Assembly: GCF_021917145.1 (NCBI RefSeq)
Contig: NC_061081.1
Coordinates: 8,642,100-8,706,099 of the forward strand
DNA: 64,000 nucleotides
Direction of reading: 5' to 3'
Source: Hypomesus transpacificus
Taxonomy: Eukaryota; Chordata; Actinopteri; Osmeriformes; Osmeridae
In this document: positions 27,476 to 52,148 of the stretch, one piece after another
How positions within the stretch are numbered: position 1 is the stretch's first letter
Layout: every line of letters starts with the position of its first letter
Program-made: the position numbers and the translations under genes
Notes under the pieces: generated by a model
Told to the model about the DNA's origin: nothing
The model's database searches: none
Seen by the model: the letters and a program-made list of their open reading frames with translations, nothing else

Positions 27476-30400
27476 TCACAGCCTGGCGCACTCCTCACAG
27501 TGGTTCAGATACTCTGTGGCTTGGTTTTCATCAAACGTTGTGAAGCATCGTGGGCACTGTAGTTCTGACAGTCCCCGGGTCTCCATCCAGGCTGGGACAA
27601 GCAGCTCTGTCTGTGCTGCTGCTGATTGGCTGGTCTGGTGCTTGGCAACCGGCAGGTCCGCGCTAGTCCTTAACAACGATTGGGTCGTGTCCATTCGCCG
27701 GTGAGGTGAGACTCGGACTCCAGTATGAACTCTGCATGTCGCCTTTGCGTCCTTACCACGACTCTGTCAAAGATACAGAACCACATTTAGACTGACCACA
27801 ACTGCTTGTCCTTAATATTTCTTATTCATTTTTTTTCTAGTGCCATTTCGGTGCATGAAATTTTGAGGATGTGTTCCAGCCTGACTAAGGTCTCCTTGCG
27901 TGTTTGCAAGCTACGTTATTGACCAGCAATTAGACAGCTATATCATAGAATAAGATGTCTGTGTCCAGTCTTATCCATGTTGTGTGAGACCTGGTAGCTC
28001 ATGCTACACTAAGGCCTCACCTGTGCGTGGAGCTGCTGCTGTAGGCGAGAGACCTCCTCCTTTAGATCCTGGATCGTGCCCTGTGCTCTCTCTCTGTCCG
28101 CCCGCTCTGACTTGAAGTCCTCTGTATAGATAAGAACCTGTGGGAGATAAAGAGAGGGAGGGATGAGGTCAGGTGAAGTCCTACCCAGGTGTGGTCCTGT
28201 TATCATATCATAATGAGGAAGGACACAAGTCGGGTTTCATGATCCAAAAACACTGGAATATGTTGCATTATAAGAATAAGAGGGCGGAATATTTCCATAT
28301 TTGTCACTGACCTGTTGCTCTAGCGTTTGAATACATTCCTGGTTTTTCCTCCTCATGCCCTCCAAGTCTCTTCCAAGTCTCCCACAGTCTCTAATCTTCT
28401 CTTCCAGTAAGCCGTTAAGCCTGGCTATCTCCTTCTGGAGCAACCCGCTACTGGGTGAGGCCAAGCCAGGCACCAAACCTGATCCAGACCCGGGCCTAGG
28501 CCCAGGCCCTTCTACTGGGCTAGTGCTGGAGGTAGCCTGGACACTGAACTCCTTCAGTCGCTGGCACAGTCCTCTGACGTACTCTTCCCTGCTCGCATCA
28601 TACTTCTGCCATTTAGCGTTCAGAGCTTCAACCTGGGAAGAAGAAAAGGATAGTCACTCCCCCGTAACATTTCAGGCTTTTTCTGGTCGGGCCACTCAAA
28701 TTTGCATGCAATGGTTGGTTCATTGTTAGGGGTAAGACCTGTTCTTACATGAGCCACGCTGTGTTTCAGCTGTCGGTTCTGCTCCTGCAGTTTTTTCACC
28801 AGTGCTTCCTGAGACCCGTCTGTCATCTTCATGAACAAACAGAAATCAAACCTCAAAATGAAACAGTCTTTCAGGGAATTCCAGAAACAATCAATGTCAG
28901 TCATGTACATAACTGCCAGACGTGTAGAGGAAAATAATGGGACATTTTAGTAGACTAGATGACTGACAATTTCAGTTTCAAAATGAATAAATGCGGCATC
29001 AAAAACTCAACAACCTTTACAATAAATGGGCTTACTAATAAAATGCACTGTGGGTTTGACTCCTCATGGGAAAATCAATACTTATGGCAAATGTGAGAGA
29101 TCATAAATAGGAAATTCACTATTTGTGTTGCCGAGCAATTATTCTCTTTTTCAGTCACAAACTCAGCAGATCAGGGGGCACAAAATAGCAAAGGTTGTTG
29201 GTGACGTTGTTACCAACAATGTTACAGTTAAAAGTCTATTCTGACTGGGTCTGCTACGACTACAATATTACACACCTGCTTTCCCCTCTGTTGCGTCTGT
29301 TCCTCCTCCGTCAAACCTCCCTTCTTCTCTTTCTCCAGTCTGCCCAGCAGCTCCTGGCATACCCGGACTGTCGCTGCCAGCTGGGCTCGCAGCTGGTCTG
29401 CTTCCTCCACCAGGGAGTTGCACAGCACAGCTCTGGTGGCCTGCGCTCGATCCCTCTCCTCCAGCGCTCCCCGCAGCCTCTGGATCTCCTCGTCCTTCTC
29501 ATGCTCTGGTTGGAGGGTGAAGGTCTCCAGCTCCCTCTCCTTCTCTCTCAGTTGCTGCTTCAACCTCTGGATCTCCTGTGGGGAGAGAGGGTAGGGAGAG
29601 AGAGAGACACGGAGAATGTGAAAAGGGGAGAGATAGAGAGAGGAAGGTATATGGAGAGAGAGAGTAATGGAGGAAGAGATGGAGAGAGAGGAGAGTGACG
29701 GGGAGAAATAGAGAGTGAGGAGGAGAGGAGCAGTGTGAGGACGCAAGCTTTAGAGGATGTCAATCATACTCAAGTATACAGTTTATAGTTTCCCTTTGTG
29801 GGAACACACTGAGGGTTTGAACATGAATTCTGTGTGTTGTTCTTGGTAGAAGAAAGAATTGTTGCTCAACTGTCTTGCCAACCCATAAAACAACAGTTGC
29901 ACCTGCACCCACACAGACGCTGTGAGATGGAAACGTATGGTTGATGCTACAGCAACACCCACTGTACTTGTATGGTGGGTCTGAAGAATTGAGATTTGTA
30001 TCAAGTTTGTCAGTTTCACTAAAAATAAACTAAGCCTTTATGTAAAAGATATGACTTTATCATTTATGCTTTTAATAAATAGCTCTGTAATATATTACAT
30101 ATATATAATATATAGTTTCCTTATCAAAGAGTGTGAACACACCTATACAGAGTATTTGTCAATTATTATTATCAACATGATAAGGAGTTTGTCAAATTTA
30201 CCTGACAAACACGTCAAATTCCCCAGGGAAACGTCTTACTATACTGTTCCGAACTACTTTGTTCTGCTAATTTTAGCAGTACACGTTATGTAGATTTCGT
30301 GGCTATAGAACAGATTTCGTATAGGGAGAGGTGTAAAGTCATAAATTATTGTAATCTAACCATTTTTACCTATACAAACATGACAATATAGTCAATCAAA

Positions 30401-30837
30401 AAACAATAGACTAACCAGTTACAAAATAAATATTGAGTTACACGTTACTTTATCTGCATGATTTATTTTCCATGCATGCCATAATTCAGATTGCCAATAA
30501 ATAGGCTACTTACTTGTTGACTCAACTCTGCTTGATGGGACGTGTTCACCTGTGTCTCGTAAAATTGTTGCTTTATTTTGCAGATTTCTTTACATAAACT
30601 TTCAATTAAGCACGTGGATGGTCCAATCACAACTGACTCTTGTCCCTCGACATTAATATCAATTCTCTCATATTTACCCAATCTTGCTTTAAGATCAGAA
30701 ATTAAATTGTCCCTTTTGATAATCTGCTTATTCAAAGTATCCATCTGTTGTCGCGTTTCGTGATAAAATGTGTTCAAAGTATTACAACTCCGGATTTTTG
30801 CTTTCAACGAATCATTGTGAACATTTACACTATCCAT
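27476..30837 (-). CDS. tnip2: TNFAIP3-interacting protein 2 (ABIN-2)
   Basis: Six exons joined in phase 0: 30514-30837, 29276-29575, 28749-28826, 28312-28632, 28021-28137, 27476-27763. The product is 475 residues (human about 429). It is largely coiled coil. NTFYHETRQQMDTLNKQI near the start, NAKWQKYDASREEYVRGL in exon 4, and the ubiquitin-binding UBAN core TEDFKSERADRERAQG in exon 5 all align with human TNIP2. The C-terminus has a zinc-finger pattern, LQCPRCFTTFDE, then HCEECARL. ABIN-2 binds polyubiquitin and A20, restrains NF-kB signalling, and stabilises TPL2 kinase in the cytosol (family knowledge). I chose the ATG at 30837; an in-frame ATG at 30909 would add 24 residues. A Pro/Gly-rich insert in exon 4 makes it longer than the human protein. 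Confidence 0.93.
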
Positions 30838-31603
30838 AGCAAGCGAGTATTTCCGAAGATGACACTTTTTGAGGGAGATAAAAGCACAGTAGGTAGCGAA
30901 TGTTTTCAATAGTCCATTATTTGGTGTCCAATTGTCGTGCTTCGAGAGTTCTTCTCTAATAAAGCCAAATAGGCCTACTTTCTAAATAAAACAAGGAGGT
31001 CAACAAGCTAAAAGATGTGGCGCATCTCAATTTCGAAATGAAAATATTCCGACTGCAGGGGATTTCCTTGAGGGGAGTTCCCCATTTCAATAGGCGGACT
31101 TTTCTTGTACTTTACTTTGCTTGTAGCTATGCCTACTAGGTCGGGTAAATGAACCACTCCTTTGTTCAGCCTAGAAATGTAATTTCTAAGACACTTGTAT
31201 TATGATTGTCATTTATGAAAATGTACGCATTATTTAGATTAGGTAGCCGAAGCGCCTGTCCATAGTTTGTGCACATGCGTATTCAAAAGCCTGGGTTTCC
31301 GGACCCTGATCCATGTTAGCAGAGCCCGTCTACCTATTAAACATTCTCTGATGTTAGTCAAACTGCGTTACGTGCTTAAATTCACACACCATGCAATGCA
31401 ATTGTATCAGAATATTTGACCCAGGCTTCAACTAAAACATCAACGGAAGTTGTGAAATGTGATGCAAGTTGTAAAAATTAGAAGAACGCCTTTAAATGGC
31501 CACCCCTTGTTAAATACCGCTCTCCAGCAACTAACACATTTAACATAAAATACAATTTCTAAAACGAAACAGTATCCTAAAATACGCATTTAAAAAAATA
31601 GTA
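30838..31603. other. TNIP2 promoter side
   Basis: Upstream of TNIP2 and downstream of the tRNA gene. It should hold the TNIP2 promoter and 5' leader; no TATA box, CpG-rich stretch or other feature stands out. Confidence 0.4.
31592..31598 (-). terminator. RNA polymerase III terminator of the tRNA gene
   Basis: Seven consecutive T on the minus strand, five bases beyond the tRNA 3' end. Confidence 0.85.
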
Positions 31604-31677
31604 TGGCCAGTACGGGTATCGAACCCGCGACCTTGGCGTTATTAGCACCACGCTCTAACCAACTGAGCTAACCGGCC
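31604..31677 (-). tRNA. tRNA-Ile (anticodon AAT)
   Basis: The minus strand begins GGCCGGTTAGCTCAGTTGGT and folds as a 74-nt cloverleaf: acceptor stem GGCCGGT with ACTGGCC (one G-T wobble), discriminator A, and anticodon loop CTAATAA giving AAT. The T arm GGGTTCGATACCC contains the B box. It is nearly identical to vertebrate tRNA-Ile-AAT genes as I remember them. A run of seven T at 31592-31598 (minus strand) lies just downstream and serves as the polymerase III terminator. No intron is present. Confidence 0.97.
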
Positions 31678-32045
31678 GATGAGACTTTATAGGAGGATTT
31701 AGACAACTTCAATTGTCAACACTTGATGGAGCTACACTTGACACGTTATCCTGAATACAATACATTTATTGTAAACACGTATTAAAGTACAAAGCCATTT
31801 ACAGAACAACACAAACAAATAGGGCTACATTTTATTTCAAATTTGGCAGAAACCATGCCTATAAACTGACCACCTGCTATCTATAACATTAGTTTGAAGT
31901 CATAATTAAAGCTGACCATCAATTGAGGTACTGAAGCACAATACAACTTGACAAAGCTTCTTATCTCTATGTGTAATGCAACTCAACAAAAGCAGAGTGT
32001 CAAATAAAACAGTGTAGGATTGAGAGATGTTCGTCAAGGTGTTCA

Positions 32046-38177: not shown

Positions 38178-40310
38178 ATGGAGACCCGTTTTCTGTTGGT
38201 CTGCTTGTTGGCCTCAGCCTTTGCAGTGTCTGTGAGTAGCACCTTCTTTCTCAGTAAACTCAGTGTTTCAACATGCAACACCATTTACATCCAATCCTTC
38301 ACTGTCCTCAAGGTCAAAGGCAAACCTCATGAAAAACACCAAGCTTCAGTCAAGTCCTCACACACAACGACTGAAAAGGTACAGTATGGAGCATTCAAGT
38401 TGTGTTAGGGTTAGGATAGGACCCTTTTTCTCATGAAAGTAGACATTGTAAAGTGGCCCTTTCATCTAATCTTGGAATCCCATTGCGTTTAACACTCATG
38501 CTTTACAACCTGGTCACTCAGGATGCTGTCTCTGAGGGGGCCGACAAGGGCCAGGTCCTTCCCACCAACGTAAAGGCCAGCAGTCTAGAGCAGGAGGACG
38601 AGGAGCTGAGCTCCCAGGACAATGCTAACGCTGACAAGGAGGAAGAGGAGAGGGAGGAAGGGGACGAGGAAGGCAAGAGAAGCACCCCAGTCCTTCTGAG
38701 CCAAGAGGAGCTGGTGGATCTCCTGCAGAAGGAGTCCATGGAGGAGGTGGCGGCAGAGGAGGTGGGGGGGGAAGAGGAAGGAAAGGTAGAGATAGAATCT
38801 GCCGGGACTGTGGAGGAGGTGGAAGAGGTGGAGGTGGAGGGAGAGTTGGAGGCAGAGGTGGAGGGAGAGGTGGAGGGAGAGTTGGAGGCAGAGGTGGAGG
38901 GAGAGGTGGAGGGAGAGGTGGAGGGAGAGTTGGAGGTGGAGGGAGAGTTGAAGGGAGAGGTGGAGGGAGAGGTGGAGGGAGAGGTGGAGGGAGAGTTGGA
39001 GGTGGAGGGAGAGTTGAAGGGAGAGGTGGAGGGAGAGGTGGAGGGAGAGGTGGAGGGAGAGGTGGAGGGAGAGGTGGAGAAGGAAGGGGAGGATGAAGAA
39101 GTGGTCAGTGTGAAAGAGGTAGAGGCAGAGGTAAAGGGGGAGGAAGAGACTGACAAGAATGCGCAGGAGGAGGAAAGTGAGGAGGAGGAGGATAGTGAAG
39201 AGGAGGAAGAGGCTGCTGATAAGCAAAAGGAGGAAGAAGAGGAGGAGTCCTTGGCTGTGGATGGAGAGGGAGAGCAAGGGGCTGATGTGAAGGAAATAGG
39301 AAGCAGCACAGAGTCTGAGATCAACGACATGGAGTACACAATGCCCCTGAAGACTCAGACCCCTGAAGGGAAACCCCTCGCTGATGACACTCAGCTCCTC
39401 TTGGAAGAGAAAAAATTGGATGAGGTGAAGGCGTCGGGGAAAAAGGAGGAAGAGACCGCCACTGAGGAAGAAATCCCCACTTCAATCGACGACTACGAGT
39501 CCCAACAAGATGTTCAAAACACAGAAGCTTTGGAGGATGAGGAAGTGAGTGACGAGGGAAAACTCCCAGAGGAAAACAAAAACCCGGGCAAAGATTCCCA
39601 GGCGGTACCCCAGGAGAACAGCTCCACTCGGGAAGAGGACAACCTGGAAGTTGACCAGGATTCTAAGACTAGCATGGAGCTGGATGGGAGTAGGGAGGAG
39701 GACAAGGAAAAGGAGAGCATCAGACACACCAAAAGAAAGATAAGGAAGATAAAGAAGAATCTGAGGGTGAGGAAGCACCCTGCTCAGAGGGATGAGGCCA
39801 GCATGGACACTCAGAGGGATGAGGCCAGCCAGGACTCCCAGAAGTCCGAAGGACAGGTGGAGCACAGCTTGCCCGCCGACAATGCTGTCTACAAGCCACA
39901 GAGGAAGAGAGCTGGGAAATGGGTAAATATGTACAGTATGCAGGGCATTAGTGATAACAGTAACTTTTAGTGTGACAAGGCCCATTCACAAATACAATTC
40001 ATTCACGTTTAAATGAATTGAAATTTATAATGGCCAATTTAACTGTGACCAAGCAAAATAAAACTGAAAATCCACATGAATGCACTTTGCCCTTCTTCGT
40101 TATAGTTATACAGTTTTCTTCATGGTTATACGATGTGACTCCCTCTATGGTGTGTTGTTCACAGGCTCCTTCAGTGGGCATGAACCCAGTCCAAGTCAGG
40201 GCCAGGGTGGATCTGTACCCCACCAGGCCCTCTCTATGGGCCAGCATTCACAGAGGAGAAGCATCCTCTGGTAAGTGTCGAATAAGCAGTTACTGTAAAT
40301 CTCTTTCTCA

Positions 40311-40352
<42 letters not shown>

Positions 40353-43300
40353 TACAGGTCCTTATGTATTAGAGGGACAATTTTTTCAAACCAGTTTTTT
40401 GCAACACTAAACGGACACCTCTTTCCACTTATGCTAGAAAGATGTAGTGAATCTTCAAAAATTTTATTTGAGCCATACAGCACAAATCTCACTTCAAAAG
40501 TTAGATACACACATCAGAACTCAAGATACAAGAACCTGACGGAATGCTGTATTAAGAGGACACAAGATAATGAGGTACTTAGCTCCGCCCATGACACAAA
40601 CAGTAATTGCCAGGACCAACTTTTTTATCAGGACCATAGCCATACACATACACAAACGTGAAGTTTATGTGTATTAAAAAGGCCAAACATGGATAAATGG
40701 AATATGACTAAACAGAAAGAAGTAGACTGGATTTTACAGCGCCTTGACCACATATCAGAGCAACAGAAATGTATTTGTGAACAGAAAGGAAAACATTTAT
40801 AAATGTCAAAATGAAATTATGCATGTCTACTAGACCAATGCATGTCTAACAGTGTTCCAGTTACAACAGGCCTGGTGTTGGATGTGGTGTTAGATGTGAT
40901 GTTGGATGTGATGTACTGTAGCTGTATGGTGTTAGATGTGATGTTGGATGTGATGTACTGTAGCTGTGTGGTGTTAGATGTGATGTTGGATGGGATGTAC
41001 TGTAGCAGTGTGGTGTTAGATGTGGTGTTGGATGGGATGTACTGTAGCTGTGTGGTGTTAGATGTGATGTTGGATGGGATGTACTGTAGCTGTATGGTGT
41101 TAGATGTGATGTTGGATGTGAAGTACTGTAGCTGTATGGTGTTAGATGTGATGTTGGATGTGATGTACTGTAGCTGTATGGTGTTAGATGTCATGGATGG
41201 GATGTTGGATGTGATGTTGGGTGTGATGTAGGATGTGATGTTGGATATGTTTCAGCTCTGCTGCAGGGTGTTGTATCTATCCAGGATTTTCTTTTCTTTT
41301 CAAAGTTACGCCCCGATTCCTTACAAAATCTCTTATGTTTTGGATAGAGCGACCAGCCAGAGCAAGATTTTCAGCCTTCTTGCATTGCTGGCATTCAATC
41401 ATAGTGGCCAGTTTCCCTTTTTTGATGTGTTGGCCAAAATGTCTCATGACTGCGGCAACCTCCATGGGAGACCAAAGATGCTTTTTTGCTCTCCTGGCAC
41501 TTTCCAGAGATACTAGAAAAAAAGACAAATAAATCAATGAAAACCAACTCCACTTTAAACATGTTTTAAATAAGGAATAGTAGTAGTAGTATAAACAGTA
41601 TCCCGCAGAAAGAAGAGAATGGTCATCATATTGCCTTTGGGTGGTATGGATAATTTATTTTTATCATTCTTCAGTTATACTTAAGTAACTTGGTGTTTAG
41701 TGACTGAGTATGTGTTTTCGCATTTACCAGAATGTTTCTTCGTGTTCTTTTTTCTGCTGGGCCCTTTGTCCTTCTTTTTTAGTCTTCTGTTGGGTTCTTC
41801 CCCCTTAGCATCTGTGTGTTGACTTTGTGCTGAAATGAAGAAATAAAGACAAATAACAATGGATGAGCATTTATTTGTTGTAGGGTAGGGTCCTTAAATA
41901 CGGTGAAGTCCAAGATGCTCAAGCAACTGATGGATGAATAATAAATAACAAATACATTCACTGTAAAGCGCTTAGGCTGGAACATTATTTGCTTCCAAGT
42001 TGATTTGTCATTATGAATGATATGATTAGAAGTGCTTTTATTTTGAAGGCAGTGTCGTTGCTGTCGTGCGTACTGAAGAGCAGCAGCCAGGCCTATATGT
42101 TCCTTGTTGCACTGTAATGTATTCAAAAAGTTCATTGTTAGATTGAAAATAATTTCCTGGTCATCGGTTAAAGCTACTACTTCTGTAATCTACATTCACA
42201 TCACTTGAAATTTAGCTTACATGCCTCCCATTTACCTGAACTGTTGCCGTGACAACAACATTGAAACGAGTGAAGAAGGTCTGAATCCACAATGCATTAT
42301 TTCATAGCCTAAAAGCAATCAAAGAAGGTGACATGTAGACTGAGGATAAGAGTTAACCTTGTGATAATGGCGCAGGTTCCTCGACAGGTTGCCCGACCAT
42401 CAACAGTTCTTGCACAACCTGTAATAAAATATAATATACTTCATTACATACATAGAAATAAAGATGAGTATTACAGAGAAAGTTTGGTTAACTTAAGTTA
42501 CCTTTGCCATGTCATGTCACTGCATGTGTCATTTGGCACATGCAGTTAAGTTTGGACAAAAGCAGACTTTCACAGAATAAACCAGGAAACGTTGAAAAAT
42601 CTAATTGGCATACGGCACCCTTTGCCATCTTTGTATGTGACTTCATAGAGGCCCACGAGTAGAACGCAAACCAACTGTGGATGTCTGTTTGCATGAGCAC
42701 TCAATTGCTATCTCAAAAAAAAAAAAAAAACTGTGAATCTATACACAGCTGAATGCAATTCTTATGAATTCAGATTTAAATAAAGTTAATGTATAACTGC
42801 TGAATATCATTCTCATGACTTTATTTTGGACAATAAATATGCCTTAAAAGATGAAACTTACCTCTAGTGTGTTGCCTGAAAAGGATCCGCATGCGTCCAC
42901 ATCCTCAGCCTGGCATGGCATCTCTTTGGAGATCTGAGATGTAAAGAACCATCACTGAATGAGAGTTTGTTTCTCATGTACAGTACTCAGTCCTCCTTAT
43001 TCCTGCACCTTACATGTTGAGTATTACACAGGACCTGTGTGTCTGCGCACTTCTTAATGTACTTTCATTCCTTTGTACATGTAATTTCAAATCTCAGTCC
43101 TCCAAATTCCTGCACCTTACATATTAAGGTTACATCGTACCTGTGTGTCTGAATACTGTTGAATATCATTCTCCTGACTTTATTTTAGACAATAAATATG
43201 CCTTAAAATATGAAACTTACCTCTAGTGTGTTGCCTGAAAAGGATCCGCATGCGTCCACATCCTCAGCCTGGCATGGCATCTCTTTGGAGATCTGAGATG

Positions 43301-46300
43301 TAAAGAACAATCACTGAATGAGAGTTTGTTTCTCATGTACAGTACTCAGTCCTCCTTATTCCTGCACCTTACATGTTGAGTATTACACAGGACCTGTGTG
43401 TCTGCGCACTTCTTAATGTACTTTCATTCCTCTGTACATGTAATTTCAAAACTCAGTCCTCCTTATTCCTGCACCTTACATGTTGAGTATTACACAGGAC
43501 CTGTGTGTCTGCGCACTTCTTAATGTACTTTCATTCCTTTGTACATGTAATTTCAAAACTCAATCCTCCAAATTCCTGCACCTTACATATAAAGGTTACA
43601 TCGTACTTGTGTGTCTGAATACTTCTGAATATCATTCTCATGACTTTATTTTAGACAATAAATATGCCTTAAAAGATGAAACTTACCTCTAGTGTGTTGC
43701 CTGAAAAGGATCCGCATGCGTCCACATCCTCAGCCTGGCATGGCATCTCTTTGGAGATCTGAGATGTAAAGAACAATCACTGAATGAGAGTTTGTTTCTC
43801 ATGTACAGTACTCAGTCCTCCTTATTCCTGCACCTTACATGTTGAGTATTACACAGGACCTGTGTGTCTGCGCACTTCTTAATGTACTTTCATTCCTCTG
43901 TACATGTAATTTCAAAACTCAGTCCTCCTTATTCCTGCACCTTACATGTTGAGTATTACACAGGACCTGTGTGTCTGCGCACTTCTTAATGTACTTTCAT
44001 TCCTTTGTACATGTAATTTCAAAACTCAATCCTCTAAATTCCTGCACCTTACATATAAAGGTTACATCGTACTTGTGTGTCTGAATACTTCTGAATATCA
44101 TTCTCATGACTTTATTTTAGACAATAAATATGCCTTAAAAGATGAAACTTACCTCTAGTGTGTTGCCTGAAAAGGATCCGCATGCGTCCACATCCTCAGC
44201 CTGGCATGGCATCTCTTTGGAGATCTGAGATGTAAAGAACAATCACTGAATGAGAGTTTGTTTCTCATGTACAGTACTCAGTCCTCCTTATTCCTGCACC
44301 TTACATGTTGAGTATTACACAGGACCTATGTGTCTGCGCACTTCTTAATGTACTTTCATTCCTCTGTACATGTAATTTCAAAATTCAGTCCTCCTAATTC
44401 CAGCATCTTACATATTAAGGTTATATCGTACCTGTGTGTCTGAATACTGCTGAATATCATTCTCATGACTTTATTTTAGACAATAAATAAGCCTTAGAAA
44501 GATTAAACTTACCTTTAGTGTGTTGCCTGAAAAGGATCCGCATGCGTCCACATCCTCAGCCTGGCATGGCATCTCTTTGGAGATCTGAGATGTAAAGAAC
44601 AATCACTGAATGAGAGTTTGTTTCTCATGTACAGTACTCAGTCCTCCTTATTCCTGCACCTTACATGTTGAGTATTACACAGGACCTGTGTGTCTGCGCA
44701 CTTCTTAATGTACTTTCATTCCTTTGTACATGTAATTTCAAAACTCAATCCTCCAAATTCCTGCACCTTACATATAAAGGTTACATCGTACTTGTGTGTC
44801 TGAATACTTCTGAATATCATTCTCATGACTTTATTTTAGACAATAAATATGCCTTAAAAGATGAAACTTACCTCTAGTGTGTTGCCTGAAAAGGATCCGC
44901 ATGCGTCCACATCCTCAGCCTGGCATGGCATCTCTTTGGAGATCTGAGATGTAAAGAACAATCACTGAATGAGAGTTTGTTTCTCATGTACAGTACTCAG
45001 TCCTCCTTATTCCTGCACCTTACATGTTGAGTATTACACAGGACCTGTGTGTCTGCGCACTTCTTAATGTACTTTCATTCCTCTGTACATGTAATTTCAA
45101 AACTCAGTCCTCCTTATTCCTGCACCTTACATGTTGAGTATTACACAGGACCTGTGTGTCTGCGCACTTCTTAATGTACTTTCATTCCTTTGTACATGTA
45201 ATTTCAAAACTCAATCCTCTAAATTCCTGCACCTTACATATAAAGGTTACATCGTACTTGTGTGTCTGAATACTTCTGAATATCATTCTCATGACTTTAT
45301 TTTAGACAATAAATATGCCTTAAAAGATGAAACTTACCTCTAGTGTGTTGCCTGAAAAGGATCCGCATGCGTCCACATCCTCAGCCTGGCATGGCATCTC
45401 TTTGGAGATCTGAGATGTAAAGAACAATCACTGAATGAGAGTTTGTTTCTCATGTACAGTACTCAGTCCTCCTTATTCCTGCACCTTACATGTTGAGTAT
45501 TACACAGGACCTATGTGTCTGCGCACTTCTTAATGTACTTTCATTCCTCTGTACATGTAATTTCAAAATTCAGTCCTCCAAATTCCAGCATCTTACATAT
45601 TAAGGTTATATCGTACCTGTGTGTCTGAATACTGCTGAATATCATTCTCATGACTTTATTTTAGACAATAAATAAGCCTTAGAAAGATTAAACTTACCTT
45701 TAGTGTGTTGCCTGAAAAGGATCCGCATGCGTCCACATCCTCAGCCTGGCATGGCATCTCTTTGGAGATCTGAGATGTAAAGAACAATCACTGAATGAGA
45801 GTTTGTTTCTCATGTACAGTACTCAGTCCTCCTTATTCCTGCACCTTACATGTTGAGTATTACACAGGACCTGTGTGTCTGCGCACTTCTTAATGTACTT
45901 TCATTCCTTTGTACATGTAATTTCAAAACTCAATCCTCCAAATTCCTGCACCTTACATATAAAGGTTACATCGTACTTGTGTGTCTGAATACTTCTGAAT
46001 ATCATTCTCATGACTTTATTTTAGACAATAAATATGCCTTAAAAGATGAAACTTACCTCTAGTGTGTTGCCTGAAAAGGATCCGCATGCGTCCACATCCT
46101 CAGCCTGGCATGGCATCTCTTTGGAGATCTGAGATGTAAAGAACAATCACTGAATGAGAGTTTGTTTCTCATGTACAGTACTCAGTCCTCCTTATTCCTG
46201 CACCTTACATGTTGAGTATTACACAGGACCTGTGTGTCTGCGCACTTCTTAATGTACTTTCATTCCTCTGTACATGTAATTTCAAAACTCAGTCCTCCTT

Positions 46301-49300
46301 ATTCCTGCACCTTACATGTTGAGTATTACACAGGACCTGTGTGTCTGCGCACTTCTTAATGTACTTTCATTCCTTTGTACATGTAATTTCAAAACTCAAT
46401 CCTTTAAATTCCTGCACCTTACATATAAAGGTTACATCGTACTTGTGTGTCTGAATACTTCTGAATATCATTCTCATGACTTTATTTTAGACAATAAATA
46501 TGCCTTAAAAGATGAAACTTACCTCTAGTGTGTTGCCTGAAAAGGATCCGCATGCGTCCACATCCTCAGCCTGGCATGGCATCTCTTTGGAGATCTGAGA
46601 TGTAAAGAACAATCACTGAATGAGAGTTTGTTTCTCATGTACAGTACTCAGTCCTCCTTATTCCTGCACCTTACATGTTGAGTATTACACAGGACCTATG
46701 TGTCTGCGCACTTCTTAATGTACTTTCATTCCTCTGTACATGTAATTTCAAAATTCAGTCCTCCAAATTCCAGCATCTTACATATTAAGGTTATATCGTA
46801 CCTGTGTGTCTGAATACTGCTGAATATCATTCTCATGACTTTATTTTAGACAATAAATAAGCCTTAGAAAGATTAAACTTACCTTTAGTGTGTTGCCTGA
46901 AAAGGATCCGCATGCGTCCACATCCTCAGCCTGGCATGGCATCTCTTTGGAGATCTGAGATGTAAAGAACAATCACTGAATGAGAGTTTGTTTCTCATGT
47001 ACAGTACTCAGTCCTCCTTATTCCTGCACCTTACATGTTGAGTATTACACAGGACCTATGTGTCTGCGCACTTCTTAATGTACTTTCATTCCTCTGTACA
47101 TGTAATTTCAAAATTCAGTCCTCCAAATTCCAGCATCTTACATATTAAGGTTATATCGTACCTGTGTGTCTGAATACTGCTGAATATCATTCTCATGACT
47201 TTATTTTAGACAATAAATAAGCCTTAGAAAGATTAAACTTACCTCTAGTGTGTTGCCTGAAAAGGATCCGCATGCGTCCACATCCTCAGCCTGGCATGGC
47301 ATCTCTTTGGAGATCTGAGATGTAAAGAACAATCACTGAATGAGAGTTTGTTTCTCATGTACAGTACTCAGTCCTCCTTATTCCTGCATCTTACATGTTG
47401 AGTATTACACAGGACCTGCGTGTCTGCGCACTTCTTAATGTACTTTCATTCCTCTGTACATGTAATTTCAAAACTCAGTCCTCCTTATTCCTGCACCTTA
47501 CATGTTGAGTATTACACAGGACCTGTGTGTCTGCGCACTTCTTAATGTACTTTCATTCCTTTGTACATGTAATTTCAAAACTCAATCCTCCAAATTCCTG
47601 CACCTTACATATAAAGGTTACATCGTACTTGTGTGTCTGAATACTTCTGAATATCATTCTCATGACTTTATTTTAGACAATAAATATGCCTTAAAAGATG
47701 AAACTTACCTCTAGTGTGTTGCCTGAAAAGGATCCGCATGCGTCCACATCCTCAGCCTGGCATGGCATCTCTTTGGAGATCTGAGATGTAAAGAACAATC
47801 ACTGAATGAGAGTTTGTTTCTCATGTACAGTACTCAGTCCTCCTTATTCCTGCACCTTACATGTTGAGTATTACACAGGACCTGTGTGTCTGCGCACTTC
47901 TTAATGTACTTTCATTCCTTTGTACATGTAATTTCAAAACTCAATCCTCCAAATTCCTGCACCTTACATATAAAGGTTACATCGTACTTGTGTGTCTGAA
48001 TACTTCTGAATATCATTCTCATGACTTTATTTTAGACAATAAATATGCCTTAAAAGATGAAACTTACCTCTAGTGTGTTGCCTGAAAAGGATCCGCATGC
48101 GTCCACATCCTCAGCCTGGCATGGCATCTCTTTGGAGATCTGAGATGTAAAGAACAATCACTGAATGAGAGTTTGTTTCTCATGTACAGTACTCAGTCCT
48201 CCTTATTCCTGCACCTTACATGTTGAGTATTACACAGGACCTGTGTGTCTGCGCACTTCTTAATGTACTTTCATTCCTCTGTACATGTAATTTCAAAACT
48301 CAGTCCTCCTTATTCCTGCACCTTACATGTTGAGTATTACACAGGACCTGTGTGTCTGCGCACTTCTTAATGTACTTTCATTCCTTTGTACATGTAATTT
48401 CAGTATACAATATGATTTAATGATATTAGATGTTATTTTTCCAAAACGGAAGCTAGCTAGCTCTAGTTAGCTTCGGTTACCTAGCAACCTAGCATAATAC
48501 TCGTAGCAATGCTACTACCTGCTAGTGTTACTTGTTAGGGATATGAAACATAACCATTAGTCAATGTGCAAGCAGCTGCTCTGTTGAATAAATATATTTG
48601 TAAATCTGATTTTGAAAGAGTCAGTATGCCTACGTGCCTCCCCAGCCAAGAACCTCACCGCATGTCACTGGCCAGTTGCTAATAACTAGCTAAACTGTCA
48701 TAGATCAGATGTTTTGGTGCATACAAACATCAAGTAACCTAATCCATTCTGCATAATTTACCTTTAGTCATTGTTTTAGCAGATTACATAACAATATGTA
48801 CCTAAATGTGTAAAGAATATTAAATGGGTCTTACCTCGTCCTCCACGCATGCAGGGATGAGAGGTGTTCAATTAGAAAGTACTAATGTTTCGCGGCAAAA
48901 CTTGACGGATTGTACCACGTTGATAGAAGAGGAGGGGTATGACAAAATAAGAATTCCTTTTTCGTTTCTAAAGAGCATAGTTTGATTTATTCAGGAAGAA
49001 GAAAACAACTTACTTACGTAATATTTTGTTAATTTCATTCAATATTTCAAGATACATGGTTTATAATACATTTTGCTTTTATCGTATTGCTAACTCATCC
49101 CCTGTGTAAATAGCGACTTGAATTGGAAGGACAGTGTAGTAATTATCAGGACCTTCCGGCAGACAACCAATCAGCATAAGACGCTGTGTGCATATTCATG
49201 AAGTCCTGCTAGTACACAACCTGCCGTAGGGGGCGCTGTGGTGATACACAGATTTTACACACAAATCATGTTTATATGTATTAAACGGACATCTTGGTTT

Positions 49301-49454
49301 TTTTGCATTTTTAGGGTTAATGGACCAATAGAAACCATTCTACACTTTTAGAATTTTGTCGAAATTAGCAGGACACTGCTCCTGTCCTGTTAATTCAAAA
49401 TGTCCTTCTAGTGTGGTGTGTATTCTGACCAATTGTCCTGTTAAAACACATGGA

Positions 49455-49509
<55 letters not shown>

Positions 49510-50761
49510 ACACATGCTCAAGCAGACACATTATCTCTCCCCATTTCTCTCTCTCTCGCTGTCTCTCTCTCTCTCTTTCTCTTTCTCTCTATTTCTCTCT
49601 CTCTCTCACACCCACACACACACACACACACACACATACATACACACATGAACACATACACTCAATAAATAAATAAATATATAAATATGCTGACTGGCCC
49701 GTTTTACTAACCCTCCCAGAATAATAGTGTCATTCATTTTCACGGTCACTACCAAAACACAACTGTGTCCAGCTTAAGGAGTCAATGAGAGAGATCATGT
49801 TGAATTCAGGCTCTGTACAAACTACTGCAGCTCTGGAATGTAGGGCTCTGGTGTACTGTGGATGTAGTGCTTGTGTTCACTAGTCCCTACGGTCTCCAAC
49901 AAGGACAGGGAGGGCCAGGATGAATACATACAACAACAACTAAACATTATGGACGGACATGATAGTTACACTAACACAGTAGCGTGATATAGCTTTGCTG
50001 TTAGGGTTGGGTTCTATCAAAATCTGTTTTTTTTACTGTACTTTACATACATATGTGTATCTTCTGGGTCTGAGGAGAACCTAAATTCCTGTTATGTTTG
50101 TGTTCCCTTCAGACCCCTGTGATACCTTCCACTGCAAGCGTGGGAAGACTTGCAAACTCGGCGAGGACAACAAGCCCACTTGTGTGTGTCAGCAGCCCTC
50201 CGCCTGTCCTCACAGCAAGTCAGATGTTGACCATGTGAGTGCAATGTCTTTGGAGGGTTCCACAAGTTGTGGATGGGAGGATTAAAAAAAACCGATATGA
50301 TCTCAGTCTACTTCACTGAACAAAAATGAAAAAAAAGGTTGGAAGGAAACCATGGAAGAAAACATTCGGAGTGTTTAGCTACAATACCTATAGCTTTTTA
50401 ATGCACTGTATACATTTGTTGTAGGTTTGTGGATCTGATAACACCACTTATGATACCTCATGCGACCTGTTTGCTACGAAGTGCAACCTGGAGGGAACCA
50501 GGAGGGGTCATAGGCTCCACTTGGACTACACCGGGCCCTGCAAACGTAAGATGGCCACCATGCCAACCACCACGCCAACCACCATGCCAATCATCTGCCA
50601 GTCTCTTATAGTAGTAGCGACAGAAAATGGGTCAAACTGAAACAAATTCACACTGTATTTTCTACCACTGCTTTTCCCATCATCACTGTGTTTCTCTCTC
50701 TCTTTCCCTCTCTCTTTCCCTCTCTCTCTTTCCCTCTCTCTCTTTCCCTCTCTCTCTTTCC

Positions 50762-50793
<32 letters not shown>

Positions 50794-52148
50794 ATCTCTC
50801 TCTCTCTTTCTCTCTTCCTCTGTCTCTCAGTCATAGCCCCATGTTTGAGCTCAGAGTTGGTCCAGTTTCCTCTGCGTATGAGGGACTGGCTGAAGAACGT
50901 ATTGTTGCAACTCTACGAACACGACAGCAAGACTCCTGGGTTCCTCACTTCTAAACAGCGCTACAGAGTAAGAATGAAACAATGGATGGATAACTGTTTG
51001 ACTGTAAACCTTCTAACATCCCTAAAGTTTATCTAAATAAGAAAAGAATCATTCATAAAATTGCCATATACCAAAACCCCTCAGGTGAGGAAAATCTTTG
51101 AGAGCGAGAGACGTCTCCACGCCGGAGACCATCCCATAGAGCTGCTTGCTCAAGACTTTGAGAAGAACTACAACATGTACATATACCCTGTCCACTGGCA
51201 GTTTGCCCAAATGGACCAGCACCCAGCAGACAGGTATTCAGACATCAGGAAGGTATCGAATGGTTGAAAGAAACAAACAAAAAGTTTATGTTGATGAAAC
51301 AAGAATGTGCAGTTAATGAAACCAAGCATGGATTTACGTAATACTCAGGTCAGTTATCTATCACACTGGGACTCAAATACAGCATAGATTCCCGTTGCTG
51401 ACTTCTACATATTTAATATGTAAGCTTTAATATCACAATTCAAACTCCAGGTGAGCATTTAGACCCATTCATGCACCCCCCCCCCCCCCCCTCCCCCTTC
51501 CGCTTATCTCCCCTTCCTTCCCCCTTCTGGTGTGTCTCATCCTTCCCCCCTATGTCAACCTGGTGCACCCTCATCCTTCCCCCCTATGTCAACCTGGTGC
51601 ACCCTCATCCTTCCCCCCTATGTCAACCTGGTGCACCCTCATCCTTCCCCCCTATGTCAACCTGGTGCACCCTCATCCTTCCCCCCTATGTCAACCTGGT
51701 GCACCCTCATCCTTCCCCCCTATGTCAACCTGGTGCACCCTCATCCTTCCCCCCTATGTCAACCTGGTGCACCCTCATCCTTCCCCCCTATGTCAACCCT
51801 CCCAGGCTCCTGTCCCACACGGAGCTAGCCCCTCTCAGGGTCCCCCTCGTTCCCATGGAGCACTGCACCTCCCTGTTCTTCCAGGAGTGTGACGTCGACA
51901 AGGACAAACAGGTGTCCTTCAGGGAGTGGGCTCACTGCTTTGGCATCAAGAACGGTGAGGAAGTGTTTTCTCTGTCCGTGCAGTTTGGATGCCATTTGGG
52001 TTTCTACTTTGGCAGATGTGTGCTGAGGTTGTGTTGTTGGCCCTCTGGGGTTAGTGTTAGACCAGGCTGTATGGTCAGAGAACGGTAATTGACATATTGT
52101 CCTATTTTTGTTCCAACAGAGGATATGGATGTCAACCTGCTTTTCTGA
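38178..52148 (+). CDS. sparcl1: SPARC-like protein 1 (hevin)
   Basis: Ten coding exons: 38178-38231, 38313-38378, 38522-39922, 40165-40270, 50113-50234, 50425-50545, 50831-50967, 51085-51233, 51806-51954, 52120-52148; 777 residues, phases consistent. Order: signal peptide [18 protein letters not shown]; a 467-residue acidic exon with [10 protein letters not shown]-type repeats; follistatin-like/Kazal modules ([20 protein letters not shown], then [16 protein letters not shown]); and the SPARC extracellular calcium-binding domain ([11 protein letters not shown]). The final EF-hand [20 protein letters not shown] matches SPARC, and the C-terminus [10 protein letters not shown] is typical of the family. 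The protein is a secreted matrix protein that binds collagen and calcium (family knowledge). SPARCL1 is regarded as the ancestor of SCPP genes, and it lies in the cluster here. The fourth intron (40271-50112) is unusually large and holds a nested antisense gene. Confidence 0.95.
38836..39082 (+). repeat. in-frame GAG-rich tandem repeat in the sparcl1 acidic exon
   Basis: Units of gtggagggagag and gttggaggtggagggagag variants are repeated about twenty times. They encode alternating E-V-E-G and E-L-E/E-L-K-G blocks. All units preserve the frame, so the acidic domain can lengthen or shorten freely. Confidence 0.9.
40316..40350 (+). repeat. (CA)n microsatellite
   Basis: A pure CA run of about 17 units shortly after the sparcl1 donor at 40270. 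Confidence 0.95.
40866..41255 (+). repeat. 42-bp minisatellite
   Basis: About nine copies of a 42-base unit of the form gatgtgatgttggatgtgat + gtactgtagctgtatggtgtta are present. Because 42 is a multiple of three, frames stay open on both strands (129 codons on plus, 125 on minus); I regard these as repeat artefacts. It ends about 20 bases from the last exon of the nested minus-strand gene. Confidence 0.93.
41277..48127 (-). CDS. nested gene with 14 tandem copies of one 72-bp exon
   Basis: It lies antisense within sparcl1 intron 4. Fourteen identical-length exons (72 bp, phase 0) begin on the plus map at 48068, 47709, 47243, 46883, 46523, 46057, 45698, 45338, 44872, 44513, 44153, 43687, 43221 and 42862. 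Each has acceptor ctttacatctcag and donor gtaagt. Each encodes [12 protein letters not shown] then [12 protein letters not shown] (K for the final E in three copies). Three single exons follow: 42358-42418 ([20 protein letters not shown]), 41728-41829 (basic, [20 protein letters not shown]) and 41277-41512 (ending LKRKENPG). Starting at the first in-frame ATG, in the 5'-most copy, the product is about 464 residues. The basic stretch looks like a nuclear localisation signal. The last module ([36 protein letters not shown]) resembles, from memory, the C-terminus of multicopy teleost proteins of unknown function. No function is claimed. Confidence 0.7.
42780..48410. repeat. tandem array carrying the repeated exon, with 1185-bp higher-order period
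   Basis: Exon starts are spaced (plus map, left to right) 359, 466, 466, 360, 359, 466, 360, 359, 466, 360, 360, 466 and 359 bases. The 466-base unit is the 360-base unit with an internal 107-base duplication (the block beginning tcctccttattcctgcacct). Three units of 466+360+359 make a 1185-base block, seen two to three times in near-perfect copy. Neighbouring copies differ by only a few bases, so the array is young or is being homogenised. The final partial unit ends at about 48402. Confidence 0.95.
48835..48900 (-). other. candidate 5' untranslated exon of the nested gene
   Basis: On the minus strand GGACGAG|gtaaga at 48829-48835 is a strong donor, just 5' of the array. The exon's 5' limit is unknown. 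Its ATG (MRGGR) spliced to any array exon would reach a stop after 14 codons, so it would act as a short upstream open frame rather than the main start. Confidence 0.4.
49456..49650 (+). repeat. compound (CA)n / (CT)n / (CA)n microsatellite
   Basis: CA run at 49456-49517, CT-rich run at 49543-49606, then CA again to about 49650. It lies in sparcl1 intron 4. Confidence 0.95.
50690..50830 (+). repeat. CT-rich tract ending at a sparcl1 splice acceptor
   Basis: About 140 bases of ctctctttcc-type repeats run directly into the acceptor of the exon at 50831, forming an extreme polypyrimidine tract. Confidence 0.9.
51538..51805 (+). repeat. 34-bp minisatellite forming a sparcl1 splice acceptor
   Basis: Seven copies of tcatccttcccccctatgtc + aacctggtgcaccc are followed by an eighth, partial copy that ends ccctatgtcaaccctcccag, which is the polypyrimidine tract and AG of the exon at 51806. 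The unit was therefore probably duplicated from the acceptor region itself. Confidence 0.95.

Follow-up and report, generated by a model that had tools for sequence, protein, structure and literature searches.

A candidate gene built on a coding tandem repeat, antisense within an intron of sparcl1 in Hypomesus transpacificus

Can an array of short, near-identical tandem units inside an intron be the body of a protein-coding gene in its own right? The question is raised by a 64,000-nucleotide stretch of the Hypomesus transpacificus genome (RefSeq assembly GCF_021917145.1, contig NC_061081.1, positions 8,642,100 to 8,706,099; hereafter the window, in whose own numbering all positions are given), where 14 copies of a single 72-bp exon lie on the minus strand within a 10.2-kb intron of the plus-strand gene sparcl1. 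The array had been noticed in an original prediction made from the sequence alone, which is followed up here computationally. The reading that we favour, and consider probable from the sequence, is that of a real, recently expanded protein-coding gene, nested antisense in this teleost sparcl1 intron. All of its exons fall within the one host intron and on the opposite strand, and the gene would extend from 41277 to about 49200 (Table 1).

The repeated exon and the exons around it

The exon copies were located on the minus strand with an exact 17-base seed and span 48139-42862. Each of the 14 copies is directly preceded by the acceptor ttctttacatctcag, directly followed by the donor gtaagt, and holds 24 open codons; the exon is symmetric, with phase 0 at both ends. 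When the copies are joined, frame 0 is the sole open sense frame, the other two containing 14 stops each. The copies vary at one site only, in the last codon, which is AAG (K) in copies 4, 7 and 10 and GAG (E) in the rest; every 72-bp unit carries its own in-frame ATG. With the array masked, no additional exon copy was found in the remaining window, merely chance-level matches of 16-21 bp. The original prediction had described fourteen tandem 72-bp exons lying antisense in a sparcl1 intron: the array is confirmed in all 14 copies, and its placement is supported by the flanking host exons, an acidic one that most plausibly ends at 39922 with a GTAAAT donor, and a follistatin-like one (by eye) that starts at 50113.

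An internal-exon filter (donor agreement of at least 8/9, at least 10/12 pyrimidines before the acceptor, a length of 45-150 bp divisible by 3, no in-frame stop) returned 14 matches on the minus strand of the array, none on its plus strand, and four in the other 116,786 strand-bases of the window; an earlier run with a donor of 9/9 had returned three matches in the array (the K copies) and none outside, and the threshold was then relaxed to 8/9. By eye, the four outside matches all lie within genes, which on inspection look like FAM193 (+14542) and SCPP genes (-33671 and +60167), while the match at -28137, adjoining a reading frame with an EABR domain, presumably belongs to TNIP2. When a single unit with its flank was shuffled, none of 1000 versions passed the filter; dinucleotide shuffles of the outside sequence (n=40) gave a mean of 0.3 matches, with at least one in 10 of the 40. 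The earlier argument that chance would not give fourteen intact exons therefore holds in part: the shuffles make chance unlikely, but the copies are duplicates and count as one strong event, not fourteen.

Downstream of the array, a dynamic program that sought the greatest coding length (minimum of 6/9 for donors and 8/12 for acceptors) returned as its best-scoring chain exactly exons 15, 16 and the last coding exon, together 132 codons. All 17 exons are without stop or frame break, and their phases agree throughout. The three in-frame downstream exons of the original prediction are thus borne out in their phases (61, 102 and 236 nt), but the donor after 42358 is weak. By itself, this tail is suggestive; array and tail combined are strong. 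A possible alternative terminal exon at 42038-42111, whose stop overlaps an AATAAA (42042), would swap the basic tail for 24 residues.

Upstream of the array, the ratio of observed to expected CpG (CpG o/e), computed in 400-bp windows over the 64 kb (n=1273, median 0.35), peaks at 0.91 in the window 48801-49200. Of the 195 windows that fall in the intron, the six with the highest ratios begin within 48651-48901, and elsewhere in the intron the ratio is at most 0.55 (500-bp windows). The remaining members of the top 40 across the 64 kb lie near 6.0-6.9, 12.2-12.8, 16.8-17.2 and 30.0-31.9 kb; CpG-rich stretches such as that at 48.7-49.3 kb are few but not unique. The stretch contains ATTGG/CCAAT at 49171 and 49126, with a third copy just outside at 49329, and an ETS-like site, CCGGAA, at 49159, motif types that are read here in their customary sense.

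For the putative 5' untranslated region (UTR) exon, no ATG gives phase 0 through the donor at 48835 into the array. Thirteen in-phase pairs of ATG and donor exist upstream (49700-48200), two with donors of 7/9, namely 49038-49018 (MKLTKYY) and 49531-49514 (adjoining a GT repeat), and the rest with 6/9. Because no upstream in-phase donor exceeds 7/9, the internal ATG of the first repeat exon is favoured as the start codon, and an alternative start at 49038 is possible beside it. At the other end, a candidate polyA signal lies about 0.8 kb past the stop. A 42-bp minisatellite (40885-41195, 7.4 copies, 95% matches; an 84-bp row extends to 41246) starts some 30-80 bases past the stop and would make up about 40% of the predicted 3' UTR.

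Taken together, these features suggest a transcript whose promoter would lie in the CpG-rich stretch, at about 48.8-49.2 kb, and which would begin with a short 5' UTR exon, continue through the 14 symmetric exons, and finish the protein with three single-copy exons. Translation would probably start at the ATG of whichever repeat exon is used first, giving a product of about 464 residues in which 14 acidic 24-residue modules, the first of them entered at its fifth residue, precede a basic tail.

Table 1. Positions in the window of the predicted gene, its array and the features mentioned in the text
Feature	Position	Strand	Remarks
Putative promoter	48701..49300	-	CpG o/e 0.82-0.91 in 400-bp windows starting 48701-48901
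Putative 5' UTR exon 1	48835..48920	-	3' end 48835, CGAG/gtaaga, 7/9; 5' end approximate
Repeat exon 1	48068..48139	-	Internal ATG (M5), probable start codon
Repeat exon 2	47709..47780	-	
Repeat exon 3	47243..47314	-	
Repeat exon 4	46883..46954	-	E24K
Repeat exon 5	46523..46594	-	
Repeat exon 6	46057..46128	-	
Repeat exon 7	45698..45769	-	E24K
Repeat exon 8	45338..45409	-	
Repeat exon 9	44872..44943	-	
Repeat exon 10	44513..44584	-	E24K
Repeat exon 11	44153..44224	-	
Repeat exon 12	43687..43758	-	
Repeat exon 13	43221..43292	-	
Repeat exon 14	42862..42933	-	
Exon 15, single-copy	42358..42418	-	61 nt, entered in phase 0 and left in phase 1; donor gttaac weak, 6/9
Possible alternative terminal exon	42038..42111	-	In phase after exon 15; acceptor weak (6/12)
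Exon 16, single-copy	41728..41829	-	102 nt, phase 1 at both ends; rich in lysine and arginine
Last coding exon	41277..41512	-	236 nt including stop; C-terminal domain; helical prediction, low confidence
AATAAA, candidate polyA signal	40463..40468	-	About 0.8 kb past the stop
Whole tandem array, 13 exon-to-exon units	42796..48402	-	
1185-bp three-unit higher-order repeat	44225..46594	-	Two copies (units 5-7, 8-10)
sparcl1 host intron, 10.2 kb	39923..50112	+	Donor choice at 39923 by eye
Outside matches of the exon filter	+14542, -33671, -28137, +60167		By eye all within genes

History of the array

The 13 start-to-start spacings of the exons are 359, 360 or 466 bp. A 107-bp intronic monomer lies once or twice ahead of each exon (20 matches in total, with up to 4 errors allowed), and the 466-bp units owe their length to an extra copy of it. 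Sorted by site pattern, successive units belong to classes A B C C B A C B A C B B D, with minor variants in units 2 and 3. The two copies of the higher-order repeat differ by 2 mismatches in 1185 bp (99.83% identity), units 1, 6 and 9 match one another at 100%, units 8 and 11 likewise, and unit-to-unit identity ranges from 94.5 to 100% in best local alignments, which points to tandem duplication that included the intron; between whole units of different classes, such alignments give 94.5-97.5% for most class pairs. Judged by these patterns, the array is a recent coding variable number tandem repeat (VNTR).

Monomers, unit classes and higher-order repeat together are read as the trace of repeated unequal crossing-over, and variation in allele length is therefore predicted. 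In the mechanism proposed, the 107-bp intronic monomers would have promoted the unequal crossing-over that built the array and probably still homogenises it. Copies of a symmetric exon, each with an in-frame ATG, can be gained, lost or skipped without a change of frame, and alleles would be expected to differ in steps of 24 residues. The ordered unit classes argue against a random assembly product, and the copy number itself may include assembly error.

Whether the exon has been held constant by selection can be judged from the 13 aligned units, in which 1 of 72 ungapped exon columns is variable, compared with 20 of 287 in the intron. In 27 of 288 windows, each 72 columns wide, variable sites are as few as in the exon or fewer; nine of these windows are at the exon or shifted from it by up to 8 columns, and 18 lie near the unit end. 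This pattern is compatible with purifying selection without proving it, and the evidence is weak.

The most serious rival to a functional array is weighed here. A real gene with one or a few 72-bp exons could have acquired its further copies as the intronic repeat grew neutrally, the extra exons being mostly skipped or tolerated and their number being without function. The recent age of the array, as seen in the identical units and the 99.83% identity of the higher-order repeat, would suit such a history, as would unit lengths that differ by whole intronic monomers and a difference in variability between exon and intron that is not significant in a two-sided test. On the other side, all 14 copies are intact in splice sites and frame despite the 94.5-97.5% identity between units of different classes; as the copies are young, this is only mild evidence, and neutral growth is judged unlikely as the explanation of the array.

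Predicted product and the case against a gene

Joined to the tail, the 14 exons encode 468 residues and a stop; counted from M5 of the first repeat, the product has 464 residues and 49.6 kDa. Each 24-residue module holds two cysteines and ends in E or K. The acidic repeat and basic C-terminal part that had been proposed for this protein agree with the computed isoelectric points, 4.05 for the repeat and 10.4 for the tail.

A Pfam search with three repeats plus tail, the only family search that covered the repeat module, gave only sub-threshold matches to ChpA-C (E 0.012) and RunxI (E 0.21), which were judged to be noise. For the last exon, comparison with viral contigs gave 17 pattern stretches and with bacterial and archaeal contigs 104, none of either set being confirmed, and the exact word IRDFVRNRG had no occurrence in the papers searched. 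Single-sequence structure models of the last exon are helical, with three helices each and a mean pLDDT (predicted local distance difference test) of 64-65: in the 66-residue model (mean 64.3), the helices cover residues 8-23, 30-44 and 49-58, in the 79-residue model residues 4-10, 17-32 and 39-68. A 19-residue stretch resembles, by eye, a nuclear localisation signal. The tail may resemble a Myb/SANT-like or recombinase-derived DNA-binding domain; for the last exon, Pfam gave no match above cut-off, and NCBIfam and PDB sequences gave none. Some tyrosine-recombinase-like proteins of fish presumably share a similar terminal W...R...NR motif. The product is tentatively predicted to be nuclear, with an acidic arm of variable length tethered by a small, basic, helical domain of DNA-binding-like character; in its details this picture is less likely than not. 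An origin of the tail from Crypton elements is possible but gains no support from the excerpted part of one source (PMC3212892), according to which its animal groups CryptonA and CryptonI lack a C-terminal domain.

A number of observations weigh against a functional gene. Clear relatives of the last exon were not obtained (Pfam, Thioredoxin_7 at E 0.21, below cut-off; NCBIfam and PDB by sequence, 0 matches each), and its models are of low confidence, their structural comparison yielding weak fold matches, none of them convincing. Regarding the gene structure, the donor of exon 15 is weak (gttaac, 6/9), and a tail chain of at least 132 codons also appeared in 16 of 300 shuffles, under thresholds that were picked post hoc so as to admit these exons; likewise, the thresholds of the exon filter were fixed after the exons had been seen. 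A clear upstream coding start was not found, the in-phase pairs of ATG and donor topping out at 7/9, and an ATG in exon 1 would, by eye, open a short out-of-frame reading frame. With a G+C content of only 36.5%, the CpG-rich stretch is no formal CpG island. Finally, the difference in variability between exon and intron is marginal (Fisher test, P 0.09 two-sided, 0.052 one-sided), and the sole exon variant alters an amino acid.

Several of these points would be accounted for by a decayed or non-coding locus, in which an old gene tail, possibly derived from a mobile element, lies beside an exon-like VNTR and gives rise to a non-coding antisense transcript at most. The weak donor of exon 15, the want of a clear upstream start, and a last exon without relatives among PDB sequences and viral, bacterial or archaeal contigs all fit this account; 17 exons without stop or frame break, in consistent phases, and the CpG-rich region upstream of them speak against it, and it appears rather improbable. 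That exon-like signals arose by chance in a repeat array without any gene is hardly credible, even though the copies are not independent, so that one chance exon would show up 14 times, and even though an equally long tail chain (16/300) and filter matches outside the array (10/40) turn up in shuffles, because none of the 1000 unit shuffles held such an exon, the four outside matches lie by eye in genes, and a CpG-rich stretch is present.

The favoured reading, a nested protein-coding gene, can be carried further. The locus might be an undescribed teleost gene that works as a tunable coding VNTR, each 72-bp unit serving as both possible start exon and internal module, copy number setting in frame the length of an acidic arm on a DNA-binding tail, and the 107-bp monomers providing the crossover substrate; in this full form the proposal is possible, though rather doubtful. 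If expressed, the gene would represent a very young domain amplification by exon duplication, in whose sequence the individual duplication steps can still be followed and the likely crossover substrate recognised; changes in copy number, splicing across successive identical exons and any effect on sparcl1 would become measurable. The locus is also a warning for annotation: near-identical tiny exons are readily collapsed by assembly and overlooked by gene predictors.

Comparable systems and the host locus

Tandem amplification of coding exons has precedents, compared here with the excerpted parts of the reports cited. In teleost piccolo b (pclob), a single phase-0 exon was tandemly amplified to 8 to 16 copies, for which unequal crossing-over has been proposed (PMC3484663). 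As in pclob, a single symmetric phase-0 exon is found in tandem in a teleost, with intact splice sites and copies that join in frame. However, the zebrafish repeat exons of pclob measure 702-1350 bp, diverge in sequence and length, and belong to a known gene (PMC3484663), whereas those described here are near-identical and 72 bp long, with short repetitive introns between them, and lie nested antisense in another gene. In human LPA, the kringle IV-2 (KIV-2) repeat is a coding VNTR whose units comprise exon and intron (PMC4378929, PMC11462820). Like it, the present array consists of tandem units of exon and intron, so that protein length would shift by whole modules, and its near-identical copies form unit types set by few variants; the LPA units, however, are 5.6 kb long, compared with 359-466 bp here. 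Moreover, the LPA unit has a known fold, the kringle, whereas the 24-residue module has no Pfam family above threshold. Nesting in a host intron in opposite orientation is exemplified by a gene of C. elegans (PMC12274878), which the present one resembles in position and direction but not in being dominated by a VNTR.

The locus belongs with pclob and LPA KIV-2 in its type of array, and probably in how that array arose. It departs from them in that its exons are tiny and near-identical, its introns are short and repetitive, each unit has an in-frame ATG, and the whole is nested antisense. A repeated-exon gene inside sparcl1 was absent among the literature matches listed, most subscription papers being outside the search.

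The host gene is further marked by a Kazal domain and a SPARC calcium-binding domain, which Pfam places at about 50.4-51.2 kb on the plus strand. SCPP-like reading frames flank sparcl1 on both sides (by eye), which fits its placement in cluster Ia of the teleost SCPP (skeletal-matrix) genes, as given in the excerpted part of one report (PMC13367325). The region of the acidic sparcl1 exon (38423-39967, plus strand) itself holds a coding repeat, and host and nested gene would thus both have repeat-expanded acidic coding regions.

A broad CpG o/e peak at 30001-31950, with values up to 1.09 the maximum of the window, lies upstream of the minus-strand gene with the EABR domain, which we take to be TNIP2-like. 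Within the array, reading through the plus strand, with two of the three frames scanned, gave a Pfam match to the ML domain (E 1.5e-6); no single stretch passes, and the match is taken as weak matches summed over repeated sequence. A further tandem repeat on the plus strand (51490-51810), which precedes an EF-hand-like stretch of sparcl1 (by eye) and has a similar translation in all three forward frames, is probably an intronic minisatellite.

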